This document shows positions 3,236-34,856 of a DNA stretch of 34,856 bases, in pieces; positions within the stretch are counted from its first letter, which is position 1; every line of letters begins with the position of its first letter. The notes beneath the pieces were generated by a model. It was not told where the DNA came from. It saw only the letters and a list, made by a program, of their open reading frames with translations, and ran no database searches. The stretch is from a virus. Position numbers and translations under genes: made by a program. The stretch is taken from positions 1-34,856 of IMG/VR virus record IMGVR_UViG_3300022907_000051. The stretch is one strand, 5' to 3'.

Positions 3236-4336
3236 TTGATTAAATGCCCATTGCCCTATATGCACCAGTTTATTGGTCAAAATTTCACGAAACCTTGTTG
3301 TAATTTTACAGAAAATAGCAACCTTACACCTACACAATACTGGAATAGTAAAGAACTAGCAACAGTACGCTCAGAACTTGAAAATGGAATATGGCCAAAA
3401 GGATGTAGTAATTGTAAACAACTTGAAGAAAATAATCAATTAAGTTTGCGACAACGCAGCTTACAAGAATATAAAATACCTGTTACTCCAAGTGTAGAAT
3501 ATGTAGATTTAAGGCTGAGTAATAAATGTAATTTTGCATGTAGAAGTTGCGAGCCTATTTTTAGTAGCAGAATTTCAAAAGAAAACAATAAACATAATTT
3601 AAAAGAATATTATGGATATTCTTTAAGTAAGAATTATATTGAGCATACAGAACAAATATCCCAAGATATAAAAAAAATAGTTCCCAAAGTAAAAAAGTTA
3701 ATGTTTACTGGAGGAGAACCAACCTATATTCAGCAATTTTATGAGATTTTAGATACTTGTTCTGCAGAAACAAATTTATTAATTACAACGAATGCAAGTA
3801 TGATAAATGATATCTTTTTAAATTGTATAAAAAAATTTAAAAACCTACATATTACTATTAGTATAGATGCAGTTGGACACCCTGCAGAATATATTAGGTA
3901 TGGTACAAATTGGGATACAATAGATCAAAATATAAAAAAGATATTGTCACTAAAATGTAGTGTTATGTTTAACACTGTATTAAGTGCATATAGTGTGCCT
4001 CATATTGAAAGTTTAGTAGATTACATAATTGAAAATGAACAAGATGCTTATGGTGCAGACATGTATATATGTGATTTCCCACAACATTTACATCCGTGTA
4101 TATTACCAAAAGAATTTCGTAAGCAGTTGACAGATAAAATAAATTGTAGTATTGTAAAGTTAAGTAATAGCAAAAGAGTTGACGATTATGATAATGCAAT
4201 TAAAGTTTTAAAAACACTAGTAATTCAACTTAAGACAGATTATAGAGATAACATAAAGTTTAAGGCATTTACAGATAAACTTGATGTAATACGGAAACAG
4301 AAATATGATTATAGGAATATGTGGACTAATTGGTAG
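3236..4336 (+). CDS. Radical SAM protein with N-terminal twitch-type Fe-S domain (copy A)
   Basis: A 366-aa protein. Residues about 1-80 form a twitch-like auxiliary Fe-S domain (Cys4, Cys21-Cys22, Cys57, Cys60). The radical SAM core follows, with CNFACRSC (Cys98, 102, 105) ligating the catalytic 4Fe-4S cluster and FTGGEP (157-162) binding S-adenosylmethionine. This N-twitch architecture is a known family without, as far as I know, an established substrate; related SPASM/twitch enzymes modify peptides or sugars. The start is TTG, three bases after the neck stop, and the end overlaps the dNMP kinase. It has no promoter of its own and sits between conserved genes like an inserted accessory gene. 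Confidence 0.85.
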   Translation: MIKCPLPYMHQFIGQNFTKPCCNFTENSNLTPTQYWNSKELATVRSELENGIWPKGCSNCKQLEENNQLSLRQRSLQEYKIPVTPSVEYVDLRLSNKCNFACRSCEPIFSSRISKENNKHNLKEYYGYSLSKNYIEHTEQISQDIKKIVPKVKKLMFTGGEPTYIQQFYEILDTCSAETNLLITTNASMINDIFLNCIKKFKNLHITISIDAVGHPAEYIRYGTNWDTIDQNIKKILSLKCSVMFNTVLSAYSVPHIESLVDYIIENEQDAYGADMYICDFPQHLHPCILPKEFRKQLTDKINCSIVKLSNSKRVDDYDNAIKVLKTLVIQLKTDYRDNIKFKAFTDKLDVIRKQKYDYRNMWTNW

Positions 4337-19320: not shown

Positions 19321-19347
19321 AGGCACCAATTTTAGGTGCCTTTTTTT
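19321..19347 (+). terminator. Rho-independent terminator after the 655-aa gene
   Basis: Stem AGGCACC / GGTGCCT (19321-19327 with 19335-19341), 7-nt loop, then T7. An upstream AATTGG (19295-19300) can instead pair with CCAATT (19326-19331), which would disrupt the stem; this may be chance. Confidence 0.9.
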
Positions 19348-19352
19348 ATAGC

Positions 19353-19360
19353 CATAAATA
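19353..19360 (+). promoter_or_regulatory. Late promoter box (CATAAATA) of radical SAM copy B
   Basis: CATAAATA lies just behind the terminator and ends 6 nt before ATG 19366. Because the terminator isolates the gene from upstream transcription, a leaderless message is the simplest reading. Confidence 0.65.
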
Positions 19361-19365
19361 GAAGC

Positions 19366-20397
19366 ATGACTAGCAATAAACATAAAATAGATTATGCAGA
19401 GTTTTATATAACAAATGTTTGTAACTATGCCTGTACTAATTGTCGCTCCTTTAATAATTTAAACCTTAAGGGCTTTCAAAAATGGGCAGATTGTAAAGAT
19501 GAATACAAAAAATTTGCTCAAAGATTAGATATAGAAGACATACAAATTCTAGGCGGTGAGCCATTTTTAAATCCTGATATTTACTATTGGATAGAAGGCA
19601 TATTATCTTTATGGCCTAATGCTAGAGTAAAAGTCACCACTAATGGAAGTAGGCGACAGGATGACAAGTTATACAATCTTTTAATAAAACATAATGGAAG
19701 ATTACAACTTGACGTTTCATGTCATGACGAGAACTATTTTGATAAGTTACATAATAATATTAAAGAGTTTTTAGGTAATTGTGATACAAAGATAATTTCA
19801 AATAAAACATCATGGAACACAGATTACGAAAAATTTAAAGGTGAAGATTGGCCGGATCAACCACCTGATATTAATATTGTAGAAAAGTTACCATGGTTAA
19901 TGAGTGAACTAGATGACCTTGGCATAGATTTATACCGTTACAAACATAAAAATAAACGTATAGAGTATACAGTAAACAATGCTTTATACGCAATCTTAGG
20001 TCAGGCATGGAATTTTTCTAAATCTGCTGTAAAAGTATCACACGATAAATTTTATGTTGATACCAAAAGCGATATAGGTACTGCCCATAAGGCATGTATA
20101 TCGAAATACTGTCATCATTTTATAGATGGAAAATTGTACAAATGTCATTTACCATATACATTAAAGGAAGCAATAACACAAGAACATGTTGCAATAAATG
20201 AAGAAGATTACAAAATTTTAGAAAGATATAAGCCCTTAGTAGCAGATGAATCAGAACATAAATTTGATAAATTCATAAAAAATATAAAAAATCCTATAGA
20301 GCAGTGTAAATTTTGTCCAGAATCTAGTGAGGCAGAAAAAATTTCTATTGTAGATAAAAAGAAAATGGATGCAAAAACTTCTGTACTTTTTACATAA
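19366..20397 (+). CDS. Radical SAM protein with C-terminal SPASM-like Cys cluster (copy B)
   Basis: A 343-aa protein from ATG 19366; a GTG at 19336 lies inside the terminator and is rejected. The core has CNYACTNC (Cys19, 23, 26) binding the catalytic 4Fe-4S cluster, ILGGEP (61-66) and VTTNGS. Unlike the other copies the core is at the very N-terminus, and the auxiliary cysteines are C-terminal (ACISKYC, KCHLPY and CKFCPE), as in SPASM/twitch maturases. Substrate unknown; SPASM enzymes modify peptides or sugars. Its transcription unit is single-gene, between a terminator and the gp32 promoter. Confidence 0.85.
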   Translation: MTSNKHKIDYAEFYITNVCNYACTNCRSFNNLNLKGFQKWADCKDEYKKFAQRLDIEDIQILGGEPFLNPDIYYWIEGILSLWPNARVKVTTNGSRRQDDKLYNLLIKHNGRLQLDVSCHDENYFDKLHNNIKEFLGNCDTKIISNKTSWNTDYEKFKGEDWPDQPPDINIVEKLPWLMSELDDLGIDLYRYKHKNKRIEYTVNNALYAILGQAWNFSKSAVKVSHDKFYVDTKSDIGTAHKACISKYCHHFIDGKLYKCHLPYTLKEAITQEHVAINEEDYKILERYKPLVADESEHKFDKFIKNIKNPIEQCKFCPESSEAEKISIVDKKKMDAKTSVLFT

Positions 20398-21554: not shown

Positions 21555-22523
21555 ATGCAACAGATAAAACCACTTTGGAGTGAGTTTGGTGATCCAGACT
21601 CACTCTCAAAAACAATTTATGTAGTAGATCATTTTTATGGCGTAAATCAAAATTATAGAAATGTATTTTTTGATAAATTAAAAGGTCAACACACAGTTAT
21701 TCTAGACACAATTATTCGTGATGAAGTAAAGGCTAATTATCCAAATTTAGACTTTAGATTTAGTGCCGATGGTTGTGATAAACTACTAAATCATCTCAGT
21801 GAATATAGATACAGAGGCACAGGAAATATAAAAAACTTTCTCTGTTCTTTTAATTTATCACCACACATCTCTAGACAACTTTTAGTGGCTCTTTTGTATA
21901 ATTATGGATTCTTTACAAAAGAATATTGTACAAAAAATTGGATTACAGATAATGATACACTAGGCGGCATTGTAATGAATCTTCTTAATAATAACAAAGA
22001 GGAAGAACTGTACAACAAATTTTTTAGATGTGATGAAACGTTTAACAGAAAAAAGTTTGTTTTTGCAGAAAATTTGATAGAGGGACAAGATTTATATTTA
22101 GGACATCATAAAAACTTACAAGCATTTGAATCTAAAATTAGCCAAAGTTTTTTAAACTTAATAGGAGAAACATTAAGTGAAAGTTATAATCCATTTATGT
22201 CTGAAAAGGCGTTTAATAGTATAGTAACACGTGGAATATTTTTAATGTTTGGACAACCTGGTTGGTATAATTTTTATGAAAAAAATCTTGGATTTAAACT
22301 ACATAATGATTTATTTGATTATAGTTTTGATAAAATTGAAAATCCAGTAAAACGACTTATAAAAATATTTGAGACGATTTCAAAATTCAGTATCCTCAAT
22401 ATGAATGATTTACAAGATTTGTATTACACACAAAAAGATATATTAGAATATAACTATAACCATTATTTTAGCAAAGACTACCTAAAACTCATGAAACAGT
22501 TTGACAATATAACAGATATATAG
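21555..22523 (+). CDS. Hypothetical protein, glycosyltransferase-like C-terminus possible
   Basis: A 322-aa Asn/Lys/Phe-rich protein between gp32 and uvsX, without a clear ribosome-binding site. The C-terminal half contains ESYNPFMSEKAFNSIVTRGI followed by FLMFGQPGWYNFYEKNLGFK and LFDYSFDKIENPVKRL. This matches a pattern (EKTF.pi..g.PFi..G.pg.l..lrelGFkTF) found in uncharacterised proteins of marine phages and bacteria, sometimes beside glycan genes. It is an accessory gene by position. I do not assign an enzyme activity. Confidence 0.6.
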   Translation: MQQIKPLWSEFGDPDSLSKTIYVVDHFYGVNQNYRNVFFDKLKGQHTVILDTIIRDEVKANYPNLDFRFSADGCDKLLNHLSEYRYRGTGNIKNFLCSFNLSPHISRQLLVALLYNYGFFTKEYCTKNWITDNDTLGGIVMNLLNNNKEEELYNKFFRCDETFNRKKFVFAENLIEGQDLYLGHHKNLQAFESKISQSFLNLIGETLSESYNPFMSEKAFNSIVTRGIFLMFGQPGWYNFYEKNLGFKLHNDLFDYSFDKIENPVKRLIKIFETISKFSILNMNDLQDLYYTQKDILEYNYNHYFSKDYLKLMKQFDNITDI

Positions 22524-23883: not shown

Positions 23884-24341
23884 GCCAGTGGTACAACAGA
23901 GTTGTAAATAACATTGCCGAAATTCCAGGTTTCATAAATTTTTATGAAAGCGAACTGGAAGAAGCAAAACGTGAATGCAATGTAAAAGGCATTGTAGAAA
24001 AAAATATTACTGCATTGCCCGGTATTACAGAACATAGATTTAATCAATTACAAGAAATAGAAGCAGTACTAAACTACCTTAACATACAGTTACGTAAAAT
24101 ACGACGTAAACATTTCCAAAAATATTTAGAAGGATATGCCCGTGCATTAACAAGCCGTGATGCAGAAAAATACGTTGACGGTGAAGACGAAGTTATTGAC
24201 TTTGAAACTATTATCAACGAAGTTGCATTGCTCAGAAACCGTTGGCTAGGTATAATGAAAGGCTTAGATACTAAACAATGGCAAATGGGCCATGTAGTAA
24301 GACTACGTACTGCAGGTATGGAAGACATAAGAATTGACTAG
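23880..24341 (+). CDS. uvsY: UvsY-like recombination mediator
   Basis: A 153-aa basic, helical protein. The stretch LRKIRRKHFQKYLEGYARAL followed by INEVALLRNRWLGIMKGLD and QWQMGHVVRLRTAGMEDI follows the T4 UvsY pattern (dyysGR..., a helix, then gf.IkhI.d.r.feaG). UvsY loads UvsX on gp32-coated ssDNA as a hexamer. It starts with TTG overlapping the previous stop (TTGA). The position right behind uvsX supports the call, which is from pattern memory. Confidence 0.7.
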   Translation: MSQWYNRVVNNIAEIPGFINFYESELEEAKRECNVKGIVEKNITALPGITEHRFNQLQEIEAVLNYLNIQLRKIRRKHFQKYLEGYARALTSRDAEKYVDGEDEVIDFETIINEVALLRNRWLGIMKGLDTKQWQMGHVVRLRTAGMEDIRID

Positions 24342-25104
24342 AGAAGTTGCCAAATGGGACAATCAAGCAAGTCATAATCATAGTCTTCTTACATTGAATT
24401 TACTAGATCAATTTGATGACTTTAAACTTAGTATTAAGCATATGGCTGACTTTGGGTGCGGCAAAGGATTAGATTTAGAATTCTGGGCAAATATGCACGA
24501 ATGGACCGAAGACGGTGAGCCAGGGCCTAAATTAAATTTTAATTGTGTAGGATTTGATTTAGATGCAGAAAATAATACTCCTAGTAGAAAAAATATAAAA
24601 TATAAAAATCACGACTTTAATAAAGATAATATTATTTGGAGTGTACCGTTTGATGTTGTGTGGTGTCATAATCTTATGCAACACATATACAGTCCAGTAG
24701 AATTTCTAGGGCGTGTCAATCGTGCTATGTCTACAGGCAGTATGTTATATTTGTGTGTGCCTTCAACTGTAAGTGTATATCAAAACAGATTTCAAAATTA
24801 TACACCAGGACAAAATTATAACACATTTACTGCAAGTCAAATATTATATCTACTAGCACTAAATGGTTTTGACGTAAAAGATTTTTACTTACAAAAAGAA
24901 AAGTATACAGACTTAATACAAGTTTTAACTTACAAAGAACGTGAACCTTTGCCTTACAATACGACTTGGTATGAAATGGTAGACATGGACATACTTAACG
25001 AAAATATGAAAGAAGTAATACTTGGTAATGGAATTTTATCTGACCAAGGCTTAGTAACTAAGTGGTTAGACGGTACAGTATATGATTATAGGTGGCACAC
25101 TTGA
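24334..25104 (+). CDS. SAM-dependent methyltransferase
   Basis: A 256-aa class I methyltransferase: motif I MADFGCGKG (residues 37-45), an acidic loop end at VGFDLDAE, and FDVVWCHNLMQHIYSPVEFL followed by LYLCVPS, typical of the type-11 fold. The start is a TTG overlapping the uvsY stop by 8 bases; no ATG lies early enough to keep motif I. It is the first gene of the accessory island and is coupled (TTGA) to the nucleotidyltransferase-cupin gene, suggesting a small-molecule or sugar target rather than DNA. Confidence 0.75.
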   Translation: MTREVAKWDNQASHNHSLLTLNLLDQFDDFKLSIKHMADFGCGKGLDLEFWANMHEWTEDGEPGPKLNFNCVGFDLDAENNTPSRKNIKYKNHDFNKDNIIWSVPFDVVWCHNLMQHIYSPVEFLGRVNRAMSTGSMLYLCVPSTVSVYQNRFQNYTPGQNYNTFTASQILYLLALNGFDVKDFYLQKEKYTDLIQVLTYKEREPLPYNTTWYEMVDMDILNENMKEVILGNGILSDQGLVTKWLDGTVYDYRWHT

Positions 25105-25904
25105 CAACCCTGGTTCTTGTTACAGGAGGTTTCGATCCTCTTCATAGTGGACATATCGCTTATTTCAAAGCTGCAAAACAATTAGCAAGTTACGGAGGCA
25201 AACTAATTGTTGGTGTAAACAGTGATGCTTGGTTACAACGTAAAAAAGGCAAACCTTTTATGCCTTATAAAGAACGTAGTAAAATAGTACAAGAACTTAG
25301 TTGTGTGGATAGATGTATTAGTTTTGATGACAATGACGATACTGCAAATGGTGCAATACTTAATGTAGTCACACAGTTTAACTTTACAAAATTAATATTT
25401 GCAAATGGTGGTGACAGAACACAAGGCAACTGTCCTGAATATGATGCTTGGAAAACGGACAAACGTATTCAGTTTGAATATGGTGTCGGTGGATTCGACA
25501 AAGCAAATAGTAGTAGTTGGATATTAAAAGATTGGTCTGCACCTAAAGTAAACCGTGATTGGGGTTACTATCGTAATTTATATAATGGCGATGGGTTTCG
25601 TGTAAAAGAATTAGTTATAAATCCACACAGTAAGTTGTCTATGCAAAAACATGAACATAGGAGTGAAACTTGGAATTTGGTTTCAGGAACTGCTAAATTG
25701 TATATAAGCAACAGACAGATGCCAGTAGATCCAGCAGTATACACTTTGTCAGTACAAAATCCTATAGACATACCTAGTGGCGTATGGCACCGAGGTGTAA
25801 ATGATTCTGATTATCCTGCACATATTGTAGAAATTTGGAAAGGCCCCAGCGAGTTATTATCCGAGGACGATATACGTCGCTGGGATCCTATCAAGCAAAG
25901 CTAG
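25101..25904 (+). CDS. Nucleotidyltransferase-cupin fusion protein
   Basis: About 267 aa from the TTG at 25101 that overlaps the previous stop (TTGA), with AGGTGG upstream; a GTG at 25092 is an alternative. Residues 1-145 are a cytidylyltransferase-like domain (GGFDPLHSGH, the HxGH nucleotide-binding site, later GGDRTQGNC). Residues about 150-265 are a cupin of the type joined to mannose-6-phosphate isomerase/guanylyltransferase (DWGYYRNLYNGDGFRVKELV, HEHRSETWNLVSGTA, IPSGVWHRGVN, EIWKGPSELLSEDDIRR). Together these suggest activation of a sugar or polyol phosphate to a CDP- or ADP-linked donor plus a related step. Its stop TAG shares CTAG with the convergent peptide gene. Confidence 0.8.
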   Translation: MTTLVLVTGGFDPLHSGHIAYFKAAKQLASYGGKLIVGVNSDAWLQRKKGKPFMPYKERSKIVQELSCVDRCISFDDNDDTANGAILNVVTQFNFTKLIFANGGDRTQGNCPEYDAWKTDKRIQFEYGVGGFDKANSSSWILKDWSAPKVNRDWGYYRNLYNGDGFRVKELVINPHSKLSMQKHEHRSETWNLVSGTAKLYISNRQMPVDPAVYTLSVQNPIDIPSGVWHRGVNDSDYPAHIVEIWKGPSELLSEDDIRRWDPIKQS

Positions 25905-26005
25905 GCAGTACGCATTGATAACATGCGAAAGTTCATGAATTTACGAACTCTAGCACGGTCACGTGCCTTGCAAAACCTTTTCCATGAAAATGGTCTGTAA
26001 GTCAT
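25901..26005 (-). CDS. 34-aa arginine-rich peptide controlled by a glutamine riboswitch
   Basis: A short minus-strand gene with a strong ribosome-binding site (AGGGAGG, 26019-26013) 7 nt before ATG 26005. The peptide begins MTYRPFSWKRFC, continues ARDRARVRKF and ends MNFRMLSMRTA. It has 8 Arg and 3 Lys against a single acidic residue, so it is very basic. It lies 30 nt downstream of a glutamine-riboswitch aptamer, the arrangement known for cyanobacterial small peptides and glutamine-synthetase inactivating factors, which also act through basic residues. Inference: it inhibits or retunes host glutamine synthetase. It ends in the CTAG shared with the convergent gene. A random ORF of this kind with such a leader is unlikely. 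Confidence 0.75.
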   Translation of the reverse strand: MTYRPFSWKRFCKARDRARVRKFMNFRMLSMRTA

Positions 26006-26035
26006 TAGTCACCCTCCCTAGTTAATAGTTAAGGT

Positions 26036-26080
26036 GCGTTCCTTCAGCGATTGCTTACTTCCGCCCTTACGGGTGAACGT
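26036..26080 (-). ncRNA. Glutamine riboswitch aptamer (glnA type)
   Basis: On the minus strand: P1 CGTTC (26079-26075) pairs with GAACG (26041-26037). P2 is CCC/GGG (26073-26071 with 26066-26064) closed by a GTAA tetraloop. P3 is AGC/GCT (26055-26053 with 26048-26046). The conserved joining bases CGGAAGTA (26063-26056) and GAAGGAACGC (26045-26036) match the glnA/Downstream-peptide consensus as I remember it. The usual GUAGG after GGAA reads GTAAG here. Downstream CACC (26036-26033) can pair with GGTG (26013-26010) next to the Shine-Dalgarno sequence, a possible translational switch. Confidence is high for the class; glutamine-I versus the related Downstream-peptide type is less certain. Confidence 0.82.
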
Positions 26081-26085
26081 ATATA

Positions 26086-26093
26086 TATTTATT
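26086..26093 (-). promoter_or_regulatory. Late promoter box (AATAAATA) driving the riboswitch
   Basis: Minus-strand AATAAATA overlaps the stop codon of the upstream radical SAM gene. With the 6-nt spacing seen elsewhere, transcription starts at 26080, one base before the P1 stem, so the RNA would be almost pure aptamer plus peptide gene. Confidence 0.65.
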
Positions 26094-27504
26094 AATTTAC
26101 ATACATAATTTCTGCAATTTTTGGATAGGTACTTGTAAAGTTTTGATTTCTACGACTGTCTATTTCTTTTACTCTATCCCAAAATTCTGTATTAAGATCT
26201 TTATAATGATTTGTAAAAACATTTACTATGTCACGAATCTTTTTATATGGACTTGACTTAAGGTAATCTATAACTTTTTGTCTTTTAGTAATTGGTATAT
26301 TATCTAAACTAAAATATTGAGGAGAGTACACATGGCTATATTCAATATTAAAACCTAAATTTTCAGCGTACTCATGTATAGTGGTTAGATCTAATACATT
26401 AAAAACACTTGTAGTAGTATGAAAGTCAATTGTAAACTTACTTCTATCAAGTTTAGAAAATTTTTCCAAGTTATTTTTTACTATATCCCAATCAACGCCA
26501 TGTCTTTCATACTCAAATTTTTTGTATAAGTTATCTATACTTAATGAAAATTGAACATTATCAAACATAGATAGAAACTTTAAATGGATATCAGGGAAAA
26601 TTGTTCCATTAGTATTGTAATGTATTTTAATATTTGTTCTTTTATCATCTATAAGGGATTGTAAAATTTTTAAATGTTTGGTATCAAGTAAAGGTTCTCC
26701 TCCTTTAAATGTAATATAATTTAAATCATTAAATGTTTTAATTTTTTCTGTCCAGAAGTTATTCTTGATATCTATAGTATAATCTAATTCACGTATATTT
26801 TGAACTGTTTCATATTTTCTATCCTCTGTATACCATAGACTACTATTTTGTCTATTACATATTCTACATTTTAAATTACAACTTATACCAAGTTTTATAT
26901 CTAAGTTTTTTATTTTCGGGCTTTTAAAAATATCTGTAGTACAATAATCTTTACTAAAGTCAATTATACCTCGTTGTCTTAAACTAGGGATATTAACTTT
27001 TTCTTGTTTCCAACAATTATTACAAACACTAGGCATTTTTCCCTGTCTGAAATCTTGTCTTAACCTTTTAAATGGTTTACTATAAAATGCCTGTTCTAAG
27101 GTTGTATTATTAATATTTGGCCATGTATGTAATTTGTTTGGATCCATCATACAACATGGACTTATTGTTCCTGAAGGATCAACTTCTAATTGTGTAAATG
27201 GGTATATACAAAATGTTTCCTCTCTATTAAATTTAGTTATTGGTCCTGTCATAGTAAAATTTATTACATCATCACATAACTCCTCCATATAAGTTTTTAC
27301 TTCTATGTCGTTGCTATAAACATATATAAAAAATGTAGGAATATCTAATTCACTAATAATTTTATAGAAATGTTTCCAAATACTTTTATCTGTTTTTTTA
27401 TTTGCAGTAATAATAATCTTATCGTCGTATTGGTATTCTTCTTTTTTAATAGATAACAGGTCGTTATACATGTCTTGAAACGGTTGATTATAGTAATCAC
27501 TCAT
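26092..27504 (-). CDS. Radical SAM protein with twitch domain and extra N-terminal region (copy C)
   Basis: A 470-aa protein from ATG 27504; a GTG at 27525 would overlap the upstream stop and is second choice. Residues 1-95 are an extra alpha/beta region. The twitch Fe-S domain follows (Cys99, Cys117-118, Cys161, Cys164), then the radical SAM core CNLKCRIC (Cys209, 213, 216) with FKGGEP (266-271) and NTNGT. The C-terminal part is mixed alpha/beta with no more Cys clusters. It forms a minus-strand pair with the glycosyltransferase-like gene. The twitch motif C(P)...PCC...C..C is shared with copies A and D. Confidence 0.85.
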   Translation of the reverse strand: MSDYYNQPFQDMYNDLLSIKKEEYQYDDKIIITANKKTDKSIWKHFYKIISELDIPTFFIYVYSNDIEVKTYMEELCDDVINFTMTGPITKFNREETFCIYPFTQLEVDPSGTISPCCMMDPNKLHTWPNINNTTLEQAFYSKPFKRLRQDFRQGKMPSVCNNCWKQEKVNIPSLRQRGIIDFSKDYCTTDIFKSPKIKNLDIKLGISCNLKCRICNRQNSSLWYTEDRKYETVQNIRELDYTIDIKNNFWTEKIKTFNDLNYITFKGGEPLLDTKHLKILQSLIDDKRTNIKIHYNTNGTIFPDIHLKFLSMFDNVQFSLSIDNLYKKFEYERHGVDWDIVKNNLEKFSKLDRSKFTIDFHTTTSVFNVLDLTTIHEYAENLGFNIEYSHVYSPQYFSLDNIPITKRQKVIDYLKSSPYKKIRDIVNVFTNHYKDLNTEFWDRVKEIDSRRNQNFTSTYPKIAEIMYVN

Positions 27505-27511
27505 TTCTTTC

Positions 27512-28366
27512 TCAAATACGATCACGCAATCTTCTCCATTGGATATCTATTTCGTCAGCAAACCATTCAGTATAACTCATACGATTTAACCAATTATTTC
27601 TGTCAGGTTTACTAAGCCATGTTCCCATTTCAGTCCCTACATCATATGCTAAACTGTGTTTACTAACTACTGCAGGCACTCCTTGTATTACACTACTTAT
27701 TCCTGCATTACTGCTATGGCTGACTGTAAAATATGTATGGTTCAACATATGTTCCAAATCAAAACTGTCGTACGTCTGTTGTATATGTTTTGGTATATTC
27801 CAAGTTACACCTTGTTGTTTATACCATTCTGTATCACATGACCAGTGTAAACTTTCTCTAAAGCGAGGATGACTACGTACAACTATAGGTTTATCTGTAT
27901 ACTTTCTAACTTGTGTTATAGTGTTCTTGTAGTATGTATCCATATCAGGCATGTCAACCCATTGTTGACTATGACCATGTTGTCCACATATTAATACATA
28001 ATCTCCATCTTGCTTCCATGGTTGAAGTATAATGCCAAATTTATGTAATCTATCATCGGGCATATATTCATCTACTGCAAAGTATGCATCTCGGTTTATT
28101 CCATTTATGCCTAACTTCCAAGTCTTATTACGTACAAGACCGCCTACTTCTATTACTATAACAGGTTTATTTTGTGACCTATAATGTTCCCAGACACGTT
28201 TATTACCAGCCATACGTCCATACCATAACACACTCCATATAAGAGCAGCATCAGCATTCATGTCTTGTTCTACAAGTGTATCTGTTTCTTTTATAGCATC
28301 TAGTACTTGAGGGTAAACTTCGTTAGCATTACCAGGAAGATTATTTGGAAAGTAAGATATTTTCAT
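27512..28366 (-). CDS. Glycosyltransferase-like protein (GT-B C-terminal pattern), paralogue 1
   Basis: A 284-aa protein. The second half reads YVLICGQHGHSQQWVD, YYKNTITQVRKYTDKPIVVR SHPR, then VSHSSNAGISSVIQGVPAVVSKHSLA, the pattern of nucleotide-sugar-binding C-terminal halves of capsule-type glycosyltransferases (a K/R-HPR strand and an S/N-rich loop followed by G(I/V)P.V). It aligns by eye with the genes at 33201 and 33946. It would transfer a sugar to a glycan or peptide; substrate unknown. Its start lies 28 nt from the divergent gene's ATG. No ribosome-binding site or minus-strand late box is visible. Confidence 0.6.
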   Translation of the reverse strand: MKISYFPNNLPGNANEVYPQVLDAIKETDTLVEQDMNADAALIWSVLWYGRMAGNKRVWEHYRSQNKPVIVIEVGGLVRNKTWKLGINGINRDAYFAVDEYMPDDRLHKFGIILQPWKQDGDYVLICGQHGHSQQWVDMPDMDTYYKNTITQVRKYTDKPIVVRSHPRFRESLHWSCDTEWYKQQGVTWNIPKHIQQTYDSFDLEHMLNHTYFTVSHSSNAGISSVIQGVPAVVSKHSLAYDVGTEMGTWLSKPDRNNWLNRMSYTEWFADEIDIQWRRLRDRI

Positions 28367-28381
28367 GTTGATTTTTGAAGT

Positions 28382-28389
28382 AATAAATA
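28382..28389 (+). promoter_or_regulatory. Late promoter box (AATAAATA) 6 nt from the start codon
   Basis: AATAAATA ends 6 nt before ATG 28395, with only GTTAT between. The upstream gene is divergent, so this box is probably the promoter of the whole plus-strand run 28395-34856. Confidence 0.7.
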
Positions 28390-28394
28390 GTTAT

Positions 28395-29288
28395 ATGCGT
28401 ACATTATCAGTATTTACCTCTTGGCACCCAACAGGATACAAAAAATATGGCAAGCAATTTATTACAGGGTATAACAATTGTTGGCCAAAAGAAGTTCCTC
28501 TAACAATTTATGCAGAGGATCATAATCCAGACGTTCAAGGCAATCATAACATAAAACTTAATGATCAAAGAACTACACTGCCAGACCTAAAGGCTTGGCA
28601 AGAAAGACACAAAGATAATCCACATGCACATGGTTGGAATAAAGACAAAAGTAAAAAAAGTTTTTTATGGGACGCAAGCCGGTTTGCAAATAAAACTTTT
28701 GCTCTATGGCATTTTGCAAAAACTTGTAATACAGATATTTTTATTTGGTGCGATGGTGATGTAAGAACACATACGCCTATGTCATTAGATTTCTTACACA
28801 GTATAGCTCCTAATGAGAATCAATTAGCAACGTACTTAGGCAGACGCACATGGCCCGAATGTGGTTGGATGATGTTTAATCGTAATCATCCAAAGTTTGA
28901 AGAATTTATAGAACAGTGGAGATGGATATACGAAAGCGATGACATATTCAATCATGTAGAGTACCACGATAGTTTTATATTTGGAGAGCTTATAGAAGAT
29001 TTTAAATCTATAGGAGTAGAAATGAATGACTTAGGTGGTCCGGATAAAGGAGGACACATTTTTATTAACAGTCCGCTAGGTGCATACATGGATCACCTAA
29101 AAGGATTTAGAAAAGAAGTAGGCAAAAGTTTAGCAGGTGATTTAGTAGGTGGGTTCCAACATCACAGTAACCCACACTGGCAAGATTTAAGACAAGTTAC
29201 TAAACAACAAATACGTGCAGAAAAAATGAAAAAACCACATGAATATGATGCGGCACAAGAACAAAAATCTCAAGGAATTAAAAAATGA
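28395..29288 (+). CDS. GT-A-like glycosyltransferase
   Basis: A 297-aa protein. I start it at ATG 28395 because the late box lies between this and an in-frame upstream ATG at 28365. It has a DxD-type metal/nucleotide-sugar motif, FIWCDGDVR (Asp120, Asp122), preceded by FANKTFALWHFA, and a later TYLGRRTWPECGWMMFNRNH segment, the order of GT-A transferases that use sugar-nucleotide donors. The C-terminal 30 residues are Lys/Gln-rich. It overlaps the oxygenase gene by 4 bases (ATGA). Confidence 0.7.
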   Translation: MRTLSVFTSWHPTGYKKYGKQFITGYNNCWPKEVPLTIYAEDHNPDVQGNHNIKLNDQRTTLPDLKAWQERHKDNPHAHGWNKDKSKKSFLWDASRFANKTFALWHFAKTCNTDIFIWCDGDVRTHTPMSLDFLHSIAPNENQLATYLGRRTWPECGWMMFNRNHPKFEEFIEQWRWIYESDDIFNHVEYHDSFIFGELIEDFKSIGVEMNDLGGPDKGGHIFINSPLGAYMDHLKGFRKEVGKSLAGDLVGGFQHHSNPHWQDLRQVTKQQIRAEKMKKPHEYDAAQEQKSQGIKK

Positions 29289-30052
29289 GTAATTTAAGTT
29301 GTATTCAAAATGTAAAAGTAGTAGAAGAAGATCCATATCCCTATGTATGTGTAGAAGAGGCACTACCTGATAACTTGTATAAGGAGTTAGCAGATAGTTT
29401 TCCTGAACAATTGGTATGTAGTACACAACCACACGATGGAGGAATAACCTATAGATACAAAAGTAAAGAAGTTGCTAATGAAGCACCTCCTGCTATTTGG
29501 CAAGACTTTTTTGCATATCATACAAGTCCAGAATACTTTAAAGCATGTATAAAGTTATTTGAGCCTGTGATAATGAAGTCTTACCCACAGTATGAGAACC
29601 TTTTGAATGCTGATAATATTACTACAAGAGATGTGGACAATAGTGGTTCATATGTTACTGATTGTCAATTTGTTGTGCATGAACCTGTTGACCAAACTGG
29701 TACAAGTCGTACACCACATGTAGATAATCCTGTAGAAATATATGCAGGACTATTGTACATGCGTAAACCAAACGATACAAGTGCAGGTGGAAACTTTACT
29801 ATACACGAGCAAACAGGAAACATAGAACAAGTAAATAAAAGTTTAGGTAGACAGGTAGCAGATAATATACATAAACCTGTACGTGAAGTACCATACAAAG
29901 CAAATAGTTTTTGTATGTTCTTAAATGTTATGGGAAGTATTCATAGTGTTACTCCTCGTATACAACCAACAGAACGTAGACGTAGTATTAATATCATTGG
30001 CGAGTTTAATGGCAATGGTAAAATGTGGAAAGTAAAAGAAATAAAAAACTAA
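29285..30052 (+). CDS. 2-oxoglutarate/Fe(II)-dependent oxygenase
   Basis: A 255-aa double-stranded beta-helix oxygenase: iron ligands His145 and Asp147 in TPHVDNP, His220 in GSIHSVTP, and an Arg in RRRSINI for 2-oxoglutarate. Such enzymes hydroxylate proteins, sugars or small molecules; T4-like cyanophages often carry them. It is embedded in a glycan/radical SAM gene run, so the target may be the same product. AAGGA lies upstream of the ATG. The stop overlaps the next ATG (TAATG). Confidence 0.82.
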   Translation: MSNLSCIQNVKVVEEDPYPYVCVEEALPDNLYKELADSFPEQLVCSTQPHDGGITYRYKSKEVANEAPPAIWQDFFAYHTSPEYFKACIKLFEPVIMKSYPQYENLLNADNITTRDVDNSGSYVTDCQFVVHEPVDQTGTSRTPHVDNPVEIYAGLLYMRKPNDTSAGGNFTIHEQTGNIEQVNKSLGRQVADNIHKPVREVPYKANSFCMFLNVMGSIHSVTPRIQPTERRRSINIIGEFNGNGKMWKVKEIKN

Positions 30053-31266
30053 TGAAATACAGTATAGGAAAAACTAGTGGTGTATTCATTGGTGATGAAA
30101 CTGTAGTAAAAATTTTTAACATAAGGAACAAAGCACTTAAACCAAGTAGAGGCACATATCAAGATTGTTGGAATAGAGAAACAACTTGTCTAAACAGACT
30201 TATAGGTGAATTGCATTTCCCACAAATTATTGAAACTTATAATGATATACTAGGTATTAAAATGACAAACACTGGTGAAAGTTTATTTAATACTTGGCAA
30301 GAACACAATCTTATGCTATACTTAGAACAAGCAAATAGGATTGCTGATACATTAGAAAAACATAAAATAAAATACTTTCATGTAGGAATGGATGGAAAAG
30401 CAAAAGTAAACAAACAAAATGTATTTCCTTTAAGTAACTTTTGTATACAAGATGGAGAATTAAGTTTAATAGATTTTGAGATGGCTTGTCCAGTTGATAG
30501 TGAAGCTGAATCTAATATGAGTGATAGGTTCAAAGAATTGTACGCAAAGTATAATCCAGATACATTTAGACAAACATTAATAGATGCACTTAAAAATCCA
30601 AGAGCTTGTTATGAAGCAGAACTAGTAGCAAAGTTGCCTGATAAAGAAAAAATACACGTACTTAAAGACCGTAACCCTAGAGAGGTATATAAATCAATGA
30701 CTACATTTACACAACCTAGCGAAAAGATAGTAAACGAATGGAAAAAGTATCAAAAACGTTTTGGTACTGCTGATGCTATTGATAGAGTAAAACGTATGAA
30801 ACTAAATGAAGTTTGTAAGCCAGAACATAAACTTGTAGACATTGGATGTAATGATGGTTATATAACACAACTAGTAGCACCTATGGTATCAAGTGCGACA
30901 GGTATTGAACCTTTCGTAGAACTACCAGATGATAAACCTGCAAATGTTCAATGGATTAAAAAAACATTTAATGAGTTTTCTGAAACAACAGATCAATATG
31001 ATATTTTACTAAGTCTTGCAGTAAGTATTCAACTACGTGATTTTGGTGGACTTACTGAAGAACAAATAGTGAGTAAGTATTATGATTTAGTTGCACCTGG
31101 TGGTATAGTTGTACATGAAACACAAAAGCTAGAAAACCGTCCCAATAATATAGAACATACAAATGCAATGATAAAAGCATTCAAACAAAAGTTTAAACAG
31201 ATAGATCACGGTCAAGCCAGACCTAGTGGTAAACGTGAATATTATCATTTTCAAAAAGTAGACTAA
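30052..31266 (+). CDS. Kinase-like domain fused to a methyltransferase
   Basis: A 404-aa protein from ATG 30052 (TAATG overlap; a GTG at 30025 is less likely). Residues 1-150 look like a small protein-kinase/phosphotransferase fold: VVKIF (Lys20), a Glu in RETTCLNRL, and LSNFCIQDGELSLIDFEMA with Asn129 and Asp141 (DFE in place of DFG). The usual catalytic HxD is replaced by HVG (110-112), so activity is uncertain. Residues about 225-404 are a class I methyltransferase with LVDIGCNDGY (261-270) and ATGIEP. A two-domain phospho/methyl transferase of this kind suggests a tailor for a glycan or glycolipid. Confidence 0.7.
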   Translation: MKYSIGKTSGVFIGDETVVKIFNIRNKALKPSRGTYQDCWNRETTCLNRLIGELHFPQIIETYNDILGIKMTNTGESLFNTWQEHNLMLYLEQANRIADTLEKHKIKYFHVGMDGKAKVNKQNVFPLSNFCIQDGELSLIDFEMACPVDSEAESNMSDRFKELYAKYNPDTFRQTLIDALKNPRACYEAELVAKLPDKEKIHVLKDRNPREVYKSMTTFTQPSEKIVNEWKKYQKRFGTADAIDRVKRMKLNEVCKPEHKLVDIGCNDGYITQLVAPMVSSATGIEPFVELPDDKPANVQWIKKTFNEFSETTDQYDILLSLAVSIQLRDFGGLTEEQIVSKYYDLVAPGGIVVHETQKLENRPNNIEHTNAMIKAFKQKFKQIDHGQARPSGKREYYHFQKVD

Positions 31267-32399
31267 TGAAACCTCTTTGTCTTGTACCATGGACAAGTAT
31301 AGATATAAGTCCACGTGGATCTATAACACCTTGTTGTAAAATACAATTAAAGCATGAAGATAAACCTAATATTCTAAACCAAAGTATTGCTGAATACACA
31401 ACTAGTGACTTTCTCAAAAATATTAAAGATAAGATGATCAAAGGTGAGTGGCCTATAGAATGTATAAGATGTAAAACTGAAGAAGACAATGGCATAAAGA
31501 GTAAAAGGATACTAGATTATGAAAGATGGAAAACAGATTGGGATACTTATACTGAAGATAGAGGTTACATAGTTGCAAGTATAGCCTTTGGTAATACTTG
31601 TAATCTAAAATGTATTACGTGTAAATCTTCATCTAGTAGTAGATGGCGTAAAGAATATAATGATATATATGGCATAGATATAAAACCAGTAGAAACTATT
31701 AGTGCTGATGCAAACGAAATATATAATGCAATGCCTAATGTAATACATTTTGATATTCCAGGTGGCGAACCATTACTTAGTGAAATTTCAAAACAAAAAA
31801 CACTCTTACAAAAATATGTAGATAGCGGACAAAGTAAAAACATTACTCTTCATTACACAACAAATGCACAACTTTTTCCTAGTGAGGATTGGTGGGAACT
31901 TTGGCAAAACTTTTCTGAGGTAGATATACAACTTAGTGTTGATGGTGTTGGTAGAAAATATGAGTATATAAGATATCCTGCAAAAAATGAACTTCTAGAA
32001 GAATCTATTATAAAGTATAAGGCTCAACAGGACAAAACACCTAACCTTAAAATTAGTGTGAGTCATACTGTTAGTGCCTATAACATTTACTACCTTAGTG
32101 ATTTTTTTGATTGGTGTGCAGCTTACGGATTACCAAAGCCATGGTGTGGAGCAGTACATAATCCAAAACATATGAAACCAACTGTATTCCCAAATCCTAT
32201 AAGAGAAAAAATTGCAAATCATTTAAAAACTAGTAGACATGAAGATGTACGTGTATGGGGTAATTTTGTAGAAAATAACGATAGCAGTCAGTATTACCAA
32301 GAATTTTTAACTAGAAAAGATCAACACGATTTATATCGTAATTTAAATTTTGCTGAAACATTCAGCCAAGTTGAGGAGTTAATCAATGGCTTTCAATAA
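31266..32399 (+). CDS. Radical SAM protein with N-terminal twitch-type Fe-S domain (copy D)
   Basis: A 377-aa protein. The twitch domain begins at once (Cys5, Cys23-Cys24, Cys66, Cys69), then the core CNLKCITC (Cys112, 116, 119), DIPGGEP and HYTTNA. It closely follows the layout of copies A and C but without C's N-terminal extension. It starts in the stop of the kinase-methyltransferase gene (TAATG) and overlaps the next gene by 14 bases, so it belongs to the island operon. The role is probably oxidative or radical modification of a peptide or sugar; the substrate cannot be read from sequence. Confidence 0.85.
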   Translation: MKPLCLVPWTSIDISPRGSITPCCKIQLKHEDKPNILNQSIAEYTTSDFLKNIKDKMIKGEWPIECIRCKTEEDNGIKSKRILDYERWKTDWDTYTEDRGYIVASIAFGNTCNLKCITCKSSSSSRWRKEYNDIYGIDIKPVETISADANEIYNAMPNVIHFDIPGGEPLLSEISKQKTLLQKYVDSGQSKNITLHYTTNAQLFPSEDWWELWQNFSEVDIQLSVDGVGRKYEYIRYPAKNELLEESIIKYKAQQDKTPNLKISVSHTVSAYNIYYLSDFFDWCAAYGLPKPWCGAVHNPKHMKPTVFPNPIREKIANHLKTSRHEDVRVWGNFVENNDSSQYYQEFLTRKDQHDLYRNLNFAETFSQVEELINGFQ

Positions 32400-33201
32400 T
32401 ATTATGCAACTAGCAACTGCAACTCTAACACAACAAGGTGCGTTCAACCCTGGTGCTACTGTAGTTGAATGGGGCAATCAACGTTTTAGGTACAGTGAAG
32501 GATGGATCAATGAATGTGAAAAAAGATCAGGAAAAAAACTTAGACGCCCAACGCAATATGTCTGGGAATACTTTGAGGATCTTGGGTTTAGTGATTACCT
32601 TGCTATTGATATTAATACTGAACTAAGAAGTATTGCAATGGACTTGAATTTTATTTTAAAAGACAAGTACAACTATACACAACAATTTGATTATGTAACA
32701 AACAACGGAACAGGTGAGCATATATTTGACCAACGAACTGTGTTCGAAAATATGCACAACTTATGTCGTGTAGGTGGTACAATGATAAATGTTCTGCCTT
32801 TTGCTCCATGGTTTAATCATTGCTTCTATAGTTTTCATCCAGGATTATTCAGAGACATAGCCGCCGCTAACGGATACGAATGGCGTTTCATGTGGCTTGC
32901 ACAAAACACAGGCAAGTATATAGATTGTCCTACTACAATGGATAGTTGGACACACTATGAACAAAAGAAGCCACGTGCACCACTTAGTGAATTAGAACGT
33001 GCATATGATGAACTACATAACAGAGATGGCAAAGCACATAACGTAAGTATAGTAACTGCATACACAAAAACTAAAGATACACCTTTTCAAATACCGTTTC
33101 AAGGACGTTATGTCAATGATATTGTAGATGAACTAAAAGGCGAGTATAGTGCAGAAAATATAGATGTAAGACAATCAGATCATAAGAGTGCTACTTATTA
33201 A
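32386..33201 (+). CDS. Methyltransferase-like protein
   Basis: A 271-aa protein with a diverged class I methyltransferase layout: VVEWGNQRF at the motif I position (Gly-poor), YLAIDIN after it, FDYVTNNGTGEHIFDQRTVF and then LCRVGGTMINVLPF, like the type-11/12 post-core strand. The glycine-rich loop is weak, so SAM binding is plausible but not proven. GAGGAG lies upstream of ATG 32386. Coupled by overlap to both neighbours. Confidence 0.6.
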   Translation: MAFNNIMQLATATLTQQGAFNPGATVVEWGNQRFRYSEGWINECEKRSGKKLRRPTQYVWEYFEDLGFSDYLAIDINTELRSIAMDLNFILKDKYNYTQQFDYVTNNGTGEHIFDQRTVFENMHNLCRVGGTMINVLPFAPWFNHCFYSFHPGLFRDIAAANGYEWRFMWLAQNTGKYIDCPTTMDSWTHYEQKKPRAPLSELERAYDELHNRDGKAHNVSIVTAYTKTKDTPFQIPFQGRYVNDIVDELKGEYSAENIDVRQSDHKSATY

Positions 33202-33953
33202 TGTTGTATAGACATCCATCGAAACCAGATAGTAAATGTAATTGGGTAATGGATAGTCTAGCAAAGGGTTGGCGAGGGAGTGAACATCACTTTTGGGGTT
33301 TTATAAACAACAACGAATATAAAACTAAACAACTAACTAAACATAGAATAGATTGGTTCTTTTGGGATATGCCTTACTATGGTAGATGGCATAGAGATAT
33401 AAAACAGGATTTTTATTGGAGAGCTAGTAAAAATCATATACACTATAGACATACAAAAAATTATCCTAATGATAGATTTAAACAATGGAATGTAACGCCA
33501 AAAGAATACACTAAAGGTACTAAAATTCTTATATGTCCTAGTAGTGAAACAATGACCAGATATATTACAGGACAAACAGTTCAAGAATGGTTAGACAATA
33601 CAGTTACTACGTTGAAAAAATATACTGATAGACCTATAGAAATAAGATATAAACCAAGAGCAAATGGAACAAGTGGACCTAGTGTTGCAAAGATACCTTT
33701 TAGTGAACAAGCAAAGGATACTCATTGTGTTGTAACAAGTATAAGTTTATGTGCAATAGAAGCACAATTGTTAGGTATACCAACCATTTGTCATACTGAT
33801 AGTTTTGCTAAGGATATAAGTAGTACTAATATAGATGAAATCGAAAATCCTAAACGTGTGGATACTATGCAATGGTTTTATAACCTAGCATATAGTCAGT
33901 TTACACATAGTGAAATAGAATCAGGATTAGCCCAAGAGATACTCAATGCCTAA
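33201..33953 (+). CDS. Glycosyltransferase-like protein, paralogue 2
   Basis: A 250-aa protein. The second half has KILICPSSETMTRYI, WLDNTVTTLKKYTDRPIEIR, then THCVVTSISLCAIEAQLLGIPTICHTDS, matching paralogue 1 (27512) and the gene that follows. The first half is rich in Trp/His. It lacks an obvious N-terminal acceptor domain and may be the C-terminal GT-B half alone. It starts in TAATG overlap with the preceding stop and ends overlapping the next start. Confidence 0.6.
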   Translation: MLYRHPSKPDSKCNWVMDSLAKGWRGSEHHFWGFINNNEYKTKQLTKHRIDWFFWDMPYYGRWHRDIKQDFYWRASKNHIHYRHTKNYPNDRFKQWNVTPKEYTKGTKILICPSSETMTRYITGQTVQEWLDNTVTTLKKYTDRPIEIRYKPRANGTSGPSVAKIPFSEQAKDTHCVVTSISLCAIEAQLLGIPTICHTDSFAKDISSTNIDEIENPKRVDTMQWFYNLAYSQFTHSEIESGLAQEILNA

Positions 33954-34856
33954 ATTATTTGTATATGATACTAATCGTCATAAAACATCAAACATTACTT
34001 TATCCTTTGCAAGAGGTGCAATAAGACACAACAACGAAACTAACGGTGGATGGCAGGTTAAACACATACCAATTACGAGTTATTTAAAAAATGGCCTACC
34101 AGGAGACTTAAACTATGGTGATGCAGTGGCTACACTTGGTATACTGCGTGGCACAGGAAAGATGTTAAAAGATATCAAAACTATATCTGGAGTTGACTAT
34201 TACTATATAGACCACGCATATTTTTGTCCTGGATATGGCGGCAAAGGCTGGATGAGAATTACAAAGAACGCACATACTTGTATTAATTTGAGAGATGTAG
34301 ATAAAGACCGCTGGAACGGATTTCACAAACATCATGGCTATCAATGTTTGCCCTGGAAACAAAACAAAGATAGAGGTCGTAACATTCTTGTTCTACCTCC
34401 AACAGGAGCAGTAGCATGGTTTTTTAATCAAGGTCCTGACGAATGGTTAGACAGTGTGGTTAACAAACTTAAAACCCTTCTACCTGAAAGTGAACATTAT
34501 CGTATACAAGTAAGACGTAAACCAAAAGAACCAGTTGTAGATGGTGATGGAAATTTACTAGAACTTAAAACTTATCCTCAACAGGATCAACCTTTAGAAC
34601 AAGCACTAATGGATGCTCAGTGTGTAGTTGCTTATAATAGTATGGTTGCACTAGAAGCAACAATGAAAGGTATACCTGTAATCACTAGCGAGAACAGTTG
34701 TTGCAATAGAGTAAGTTATAAATTAGATGTTTACAATAATCAACAGGATCCAGAAGAGTTTAACACTGAACCAACCAACAGAGCACCTTTATTATATTGG
34801 TTAGCATATAATCAATGGAAACGTAGAGATATAGAAGACGGTACTGCGTGGCGTAT
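33946..34856 (+). CDS. Glycosyltransferase-like protein, paralogue 3 (right-edge partial)
   Basis: Open from ATG 33946 (8 bases inside the preceding gene) to the window edge, at least 303 codons. It contains NILVLPPTGAVAWFF, WLDSVVNKLKTLLP with YRIQVRRKPK, and DAQCVVAYNSMVALEATMKGIPVITSENS, the same ordered motifs as the genes at 27512 and 33201. Nothing of the C-terminus past residue 303 is seen. It extends the island beyond the window. Confidence 0.65.
   Translation, partial: MPKLFVYDTNRHKTSNITLSFARGAIRHNNETNGGWQVKHIPITSYLKNGLPGDLNYGDAVATLGILRGTGKMLKDIKTISGVDYYYIDHAYFCPGYGGKGWMRITKNAHTCINLRDVDKDRWNGFHKHHGYQCLPWKQNKDRGRNILVLPPTGAVAWFFNQGPDEWLDSVVNKLKTLLPESEHYRIQVRRKPKEPVVDGDGNLLELKTYPQQDQPLEQALMDAQCVVAYNSMVALEATMKGIPVITSENSCCNRVSYKLDVYNNQQDPEEFNTEPTNRAPLLYWLAYNQWKRRDIEDGTAWR

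Follow-up and report, generated by a model that had tools for sequence, protein, structure and literature searches.

The window analysed here, positions 1-34,856 of the IMG/VR record IMGVR_UViG_3300022907_000051 (the whole stretch examined, a virus fragment of 34,856 bases), is by its gene content a fragment of a T4-superfamily myophage from a marine jumbo-phage lineage. Behind its uvsX and uvsY genes, from 24334 onward, lies a module that very probably constitutes a glycan-building pathway, as domain calls, KpsC-like folds among its glycosyltransferases (GTs) and glycan genes in its variable slots all support. Its main run, starting at 28395, is likely to form a single late-type transcription unit, and the virion, probably its tail, is on balance the favoured target of the glycan. 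Relatives were collected as 79 related contigs (numbered with an L) by an alignment search with the GT-A-like transferase of the module, and gene counts are conditional on that gene.

Ten complete open reading frames (ORFs) and one open at its 3' end (33946) make up the island. All were found where a preliminary description of this DNA had placed them, and its domain calls hold:

24334-25104, plus strand: MT24334, class I methyltransferase (Pfam PF13489, 37 bits, above cut-off).
25092-25904, plus strand: NT-cupin, HldE-C-like nucleotidyltransferase plus ManC-type cupin (PF01467, 52 bits; PF01050, 71.6 bits; both above cut-off).
26092-27525, minus strand: rSAM_c, N-terminal-twitch radical S-adenosylmethionine (SAM) enzyme (NF033640, 289 bits against a cut-off of 170; radical SAM confirmed by Pfam).
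27512-28366, minus strand: GTB27512, core GT-B glycosyltransferase with a KpsC-like predicted fold.
28382-28389, plus strand: AATAAATA, T4-type late-promoter-like element for the plus run.
28395-29288, plus strand: GT-A, core GT-A-like transferase, first gene of the putative late run (invariant DGD motif; homologue in phage Mosig).
29285-30052, plus strand: 2OG, core 2-oxoglutarate-Fe(II) oxygenase (PF13640, 22.9 bits, below the cut-off of 27; invariant HxD...H).
30052-31266, plus strand: KinMT, kinase fold (about residues 1-200) plus class I methyltransferase (about 237-404), the latter confirmed by Pfam.
31266-32399, plus strand: rSAM_d, second N-terminal-twitch radical SAM enzyme (NF033640, 280 bits against 170; Pfam below cut-off).
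32386-33201, plus strand: MT32386, core methyltransferase-like protein (weak Pfam methyltransferase matches below cut-off; mean column identity 88%).
33201-33953, plus strand: GTB33201, core GT-B paralogue (RxKP replaces RxHP; homologues in Mosig and Caulobacter phages).
33946-34856, plus strand: GTB33946, core GT-B paralogue truncated by the window end (RxKP; weak match to the surface carbohydrate family TIGR04326).

Pfam has no matching family for GT-A, the GT-B proteins or the kinase part of KinMT; these calls are supported by the DGD motif, by a GT-B model with KpsC as its best match and by a kinase-fold model. Adjacent genes overlap by 1-14 nt, except at a 187-nt gap (25905-26091) and at the 28-nt divergent gap (28367-28394) that separates the two minus-strand genes from the plus run. 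The ratio of nonsynonymous to synonymous substitution rates (dN/dS) is 0.02-0.29 across all island genes, indicating purifying selection on each of them, and the ORFs are thus real proteins. The starts of GT-A (28395) and KinMT (30052) are corrected ones, judged from homologues. In L006, with 99-100% protein identity, the run extends past 34856, where the preliminary description had ended it, into a fourth GT-B, a methyltransferase, a sulfotransferase and more GT-like genes.

The island had been described as accessory, but its core keeps its place in all relatives examined. GTB27512 adjoins GT-A in all 79 contigs, and in the 43 loci that reach from GT-A across to MT32386, itself among the best conserved proteins of the module, 2OG is always present (43/43), KinMT mostly (33/43) and rSAM_d seldom (11/43). 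The span between UvsY and GTB27512 was testable in 77 loci; the genes found there are MT24334 (49 loci), a porin (27), rSAM_c (15) and NT-cupin (10), the last shifting between slots among relatives. The interval from MT32386 to GTB33201 (32 loci) is occupied in relatives by sulfotransferase, GT202, B12 radical SAM, MptE-like or KdsB genes, and FkbM, GT61 and GT8 genes are also among the hotspot contents. The radical SAM and NT-cupin genes, previously listed as parts of the pathway, are therefore present in the window but dispensable hotspot genes, and a model of the pathway should not depend on them. In a separate sample chosen by UvsX, loci with enough sequence past UvsY were mostly of glycan type (NT-cupin, GT8-like, GT-B, GT-A), with lower identities and other gene orders. 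The site behind uvsX-uvsY thus serves a broad lineage as a standing glycan locus.

Some relatives showed further variation at these sites. The porin (L013 6468-7304 and equivalents) is a phage Gram-negative porin (PF13609) whose start resembles a signal peptide, and it lies in the slot of rSAM_c and NT-cupin. rSAM_c is split into two ORFs of 382 and 98 amino acids in several contigs (L008 5323-6754; also L034-L036). At L013 12785-16274 and L017 12080-15560 the glycan run has an inserted cassette, whose genes encode two radical SAM enzymes, one B12-binding and one of SPASM type, with a GT-B between them.

The motif ATAAATA occurs at -12 of 28395, and the sheath, tube and head-tail adaptor genes are likewise preceded by it. 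Of its 11 sites on both strands of the window, 9 fall within 60 nt upstream of a same-strand gene start, although such regions cover 3.3% of strand positions, and no other 7-mer is as enriched ahead of genes (next anagram, 5/36). The genes so preceded encode the head-tail adaptor, sheath, tube and two other virion structural proteins, together with 15340, an HNH gene, the radical SAM gene rSAM_b and GT-A. A TATAAATA-like element, as in T4-type late units, is thus common to GT-A and virion genes; the exact TATAAATA is not enriched over the whole window (2 found, 8.3 expected). The element before GT-A is kept in relatives as TATAAATAGTTATATG and variants while the flanks diverge; ATAAATA itself stands at GT-A in 48 of 79 relatives, and was absent in relatives before 2OG, KinMT, MT32386, GTB33201 and GTB33946, as well as before uvsX (0/68). 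Because the motif is conserved at GT-A and lacking at the genes downstream, the plus run is probably served by one late promoter, as had been proposed.

The three GT-Bs of the window are mutually homologous (profile E 9e-15 to 4e-36). The predicted model of GTB27512, with a mean predicted local distance difference test score (pLDDT) of 67, has KpsC as its best match (Foldseek E 1.6e-5), aligning with 8fuw at Z 11.5 (236 residues, root-mean-square deviation 4.3 Å) and with 6mgb at Z 11.4; WbbB and KrkA are also among the top-listed matches, at Z about 9. A first KpsC profile, of three sequences, gave weak support, and a larger KpsC/KpsS profile was then built, which the broad GTB27512-family profile matched at E 9e-8 (probability 94%). 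The model, and more weakly the profile, points to a KpsC-type GT-B fold. Retaining β-Kdo (3-deoxy-D-manno-oct-2-ulosonic acid) transferases are defined by a QXXXD nucleophile motif and a (K/R)XHP motif that binds cytidine monophosphate (CMP) (PMC10148158, PMC12887879). In GTB27512 R164, H166 and P167 of the latter are invariant, whereas GTB33201 and GTB33946 have RxKP. The QXXXD position is an invariant Q129xxxS133 in GTB27512, and the motif is lacking in the other two. Since the nucleophile Asp is replaced by Ser, the window GT-Bs were not filed as β-Kdo transferases. The fourth paralogue, just past the window end in L006, has QKVND, and in L008 a CMP-Kdo synthetase (KdsB) above curated cut-offs lies immediately upstream of GTB33201. 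The phage GT-B families scored meaningfully against no Pfam, PHROG or NCBIfam model, and the PDB yielded no meaningful match when searched by sequence with the alignments of GT-A, GTB27512 and GTB33201. A bacterial source of GT-A was not found in 299 genomes, in a search that had no positive control.

KinMT combines kinase and methyltransferase domains in one protein, as does WbdD. Its model consists of a kinase-like domain and a NodS-like methyltransferase (Z 13.3), and WbdD is among its Foldseek matches. K20, E43, N129 and D141 of the kinase half are invariant, and D114, the candidate equivalent of the catalytic Asp of HRD, is Asn in L021. The order is kinase then methyltransferase, ending at residue 404, and not the methyltransferase-kinase-coiled coil of WbdD; four related contigs encode each domain in a gene of its own. 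KinMT and FkbM, in neighbouring slots, are mostly exclusive (30 loci with KinMT only, 9 with FkbM only, 3 with both). KinMT, 2OG and MT32386 had no match among 50,697 phage records, and no bacterial source of KinMT was found, partial methyltransferase matches at 27-31% identity being the only ones. The iron ligands H145, D147 and H220 of 2OG are invariant. NT-cupin reached 61 of the 181.5 bits needed for the curated HldE C-domain family rfaE_dom_II.

From these genes we infer the activities, donor sugars, order of steps and target as follows. The late-promoter operon from 28395 would make GT-A, the 2OG oxygenase, the kinase/methyltransferase, a further methyltransferase and the KpsC-like GT-Bs, and the divergent GT-B with MT24334, sometimes with NT-cupin, would complete the module. 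The transferases would put sugars onto a phage protein, using nucleotide sugars from the host, or partly made by the phage, one of which may be a CMP-ulosonic acid such as Kdo. The oxygenase might hydroxylate an acceptor residue or a sugar, and the methyltransferases together with KinMT, or with FkbM in the neighbouring slot of relatives, would finish or cap the chain. The product would most likely decorate the virion, with the tail as the probable site. On this reading, which is somewhat more probable than its contrary, virion proteins would receive an acidic, methylated glycan that is assembled late and in the cytosol. A simple hydropathy scan of the island proteins gave no clear membrane segment (highest 19-residue mean 1.61). 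In the uncultured podovirus MW202713, homologues of GT-A and of a GT-B precede the terminase. A wider proposal is that short KpsC-like transferases form an unrecognised family common to marine jumbo myophages, Mosig and Caulobacter jumbo phages, and that from a late operon they attach a capsule-like acidic sugar to virion proteins, with a WbdD-like phosphate/methyl cap in this lineage; as a whole it is speculative and rather improbable.

Several points weigh against decoration of the virion. The glycan itself has not been observed, and late timing is read from a motif, not from measured expression. None of the genes at 24334, 25092, 26092 and 27512 is preceded by its own late motif, and the late unit excludes 24334-28366. 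The catalytic Asp of β-Kdo transferases is absent from the window GT-Bs, and the two structural models, of GTB27512 and KinMT, are moderate (pLDDT 67 and 74). The position of the Caulobacter cassettes described below is an association, not a function, and the porins found in the hotspot speak for the outer membrane.

These porins, between MT24334 and GTB27512, are also the best argument that the module instead alters the host envelope (lipopolysaccharide (LPS), capsule or outer-membrane glycans) in infection, blocking superinfection or changing the receptor. Folds like those of KpsC/WbbB and WbdD originate in capsule and O-antigen pathways, and cyanophage clusters with a HIGH nucleotidyltransferase, a cupin and GTs have been read in this way (PMC7824862). 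However, many relatives have no porin, the main run has a late-type promoter, no lipid-carrier flippase family such as Wzx was found in seven long relatives (all fragments), and homologous cassettes adjoin tail and lysis genes. Virion glycosylation is favoured because of the late motif and the cassettes beside tail genes, and a change of the host surface, its chief rival, is considered possible but less likely.

DNA glycosylation is known in phages, and such pathways include 2OG oxygenases and GTs. Hypermodification of the phage DNA with sugars against restriction could thus be proposed from the same enzymes (noted for phages in PMC12619734), but it is very improbable: no thymidylate synthase or deoxycytidine monophosphate hydroxymethylase family was found in the seven long relatives, themselves fragments, the promoter is of late and not early type, the GT-Bs resemble capsule enzymes, and the oxygenase matches the prolyl 4-hydroxylase-like PF13640. 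Equally doubtful is a modified peptide or small molecule, made by radical SAM maturases with the oxygenase and methyltransferases, since, although two N-twitch radical SAM enzymes lie in the run and four radical SAM genes in the window, most relatives lack them while the GT core stays, such genes also occur singly elsewhere in the window adjoining virion genes, and the hotspots hold sulfotransferases, GTs and CMP-Kdo synthetase.

The surrounding window carries the following T4-type genes:

2477: head-tail adaptor.
5335: tail sheath.
8658: tail tube.
15750: terminase.
20492: single-stranded DNA-binding protein.
22557: UvsX.
23880: UvsY, followed by the glycan module.

The nearest cultured relatives by UvsX are Sinorhizobium and Agrobacterium jumbo phages (65-68% identity). 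The marine label is supported indirectly, by the ocean source reported for T4-like environmental genomes with many radical SAM genes (PMC5332604) and by the GT-A homologue in a Pelagibacter phage. Besides rSAM_c and rSAM_d, the window has radical SAM genes at 3236-4336 (N-twitch type, NF033640 261 bits) and 19336-20397 (below the NF033640 cut-off), which are flanked by virion or replication genes and look like freely inserted single genes. Between ssb and uvsX, 21555-22523 encodes a 322-amino-acid protein with no family match that only some relatives carry; several relatives have there a cassette of sulfotransferase-like, rSAM_g, short-chain dehydrogenase/reductase-like and rSAM_f genes (L013 403-4638, L021 1433-4581).

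Phage glycan genes are usually classed as host LPS or DNA modification, and most of the genes in question are annotated as hypothetical. A syntenic core, a late-type promoter and tail-adjacent homologues in cultured phages make virion glycosylation directly testable. If it is true, large marine phages would commonly have glycan coats, independently of the host, with effects on adsorption and antigenicity.

The closest known systems include the cassettes of the Caulobacter jumbo phages CcrSC (gp516-511) and CcrColossus (gp126-131), with homologous MptE-like, GT-B, GT-B, GT8-like and methyltransferase genes in that order, largely annotated as hypothetical. These phages are long-tailed Dolichocephalovirinae, their cassette lacks GT-A, 2OG and KinMT, and, unlike the module of the window, it lies directly between tail genes and endolysin/spanin genes. 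The Pelagibacter phage Mosig EXVC030M has an eight-gene run (00191-00183) with homologues of GT-A, two GT-Bs, a GT8-like protein, a sulfotransferase, FkbM methyltransferases and GT243, adjoining ruvC and ribonucleotide reductase genes. The Mosig run lacks 2OG, KinMT and radical SAM genes.

GTB27512 has its predicted fold and RxHP in common with the retaining β-Kdo transferases KpsC (GT107), WbbB (GT99) and KrkA (GT140) (PMC10148158, PMC12887879); the window proteins differ in their smaller size, in the Ser of GTB27512 and in the RxKP of the other two. KinMT is similarly likened to WbdD, the O-antigen kinase/methyltransferase terminator (PMC3482155), in domains and not in their order or constant fusion. 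Mycobacteriophage-encoded GTs decorate capsid and tail proteins, according to the statement in PMC12619734 that cites Freeman 2023; the module, with a putatively similar role, has far more modification enzymes. Cyanophage capsule/LPS clusters, for which superinfection exclusion was inferred, also have a HIGH nucleotidyltransferase, a cupin, several GTs, 2OG enzymes and methyltransferases (PMC7824862), whereas the module has a late-type promoter, and its GT-A, GT-B, 2OG, KinMT and MT32386 proteins have no cyanophage match. The module is a further variant of phage glycan cassettes already known in kind.

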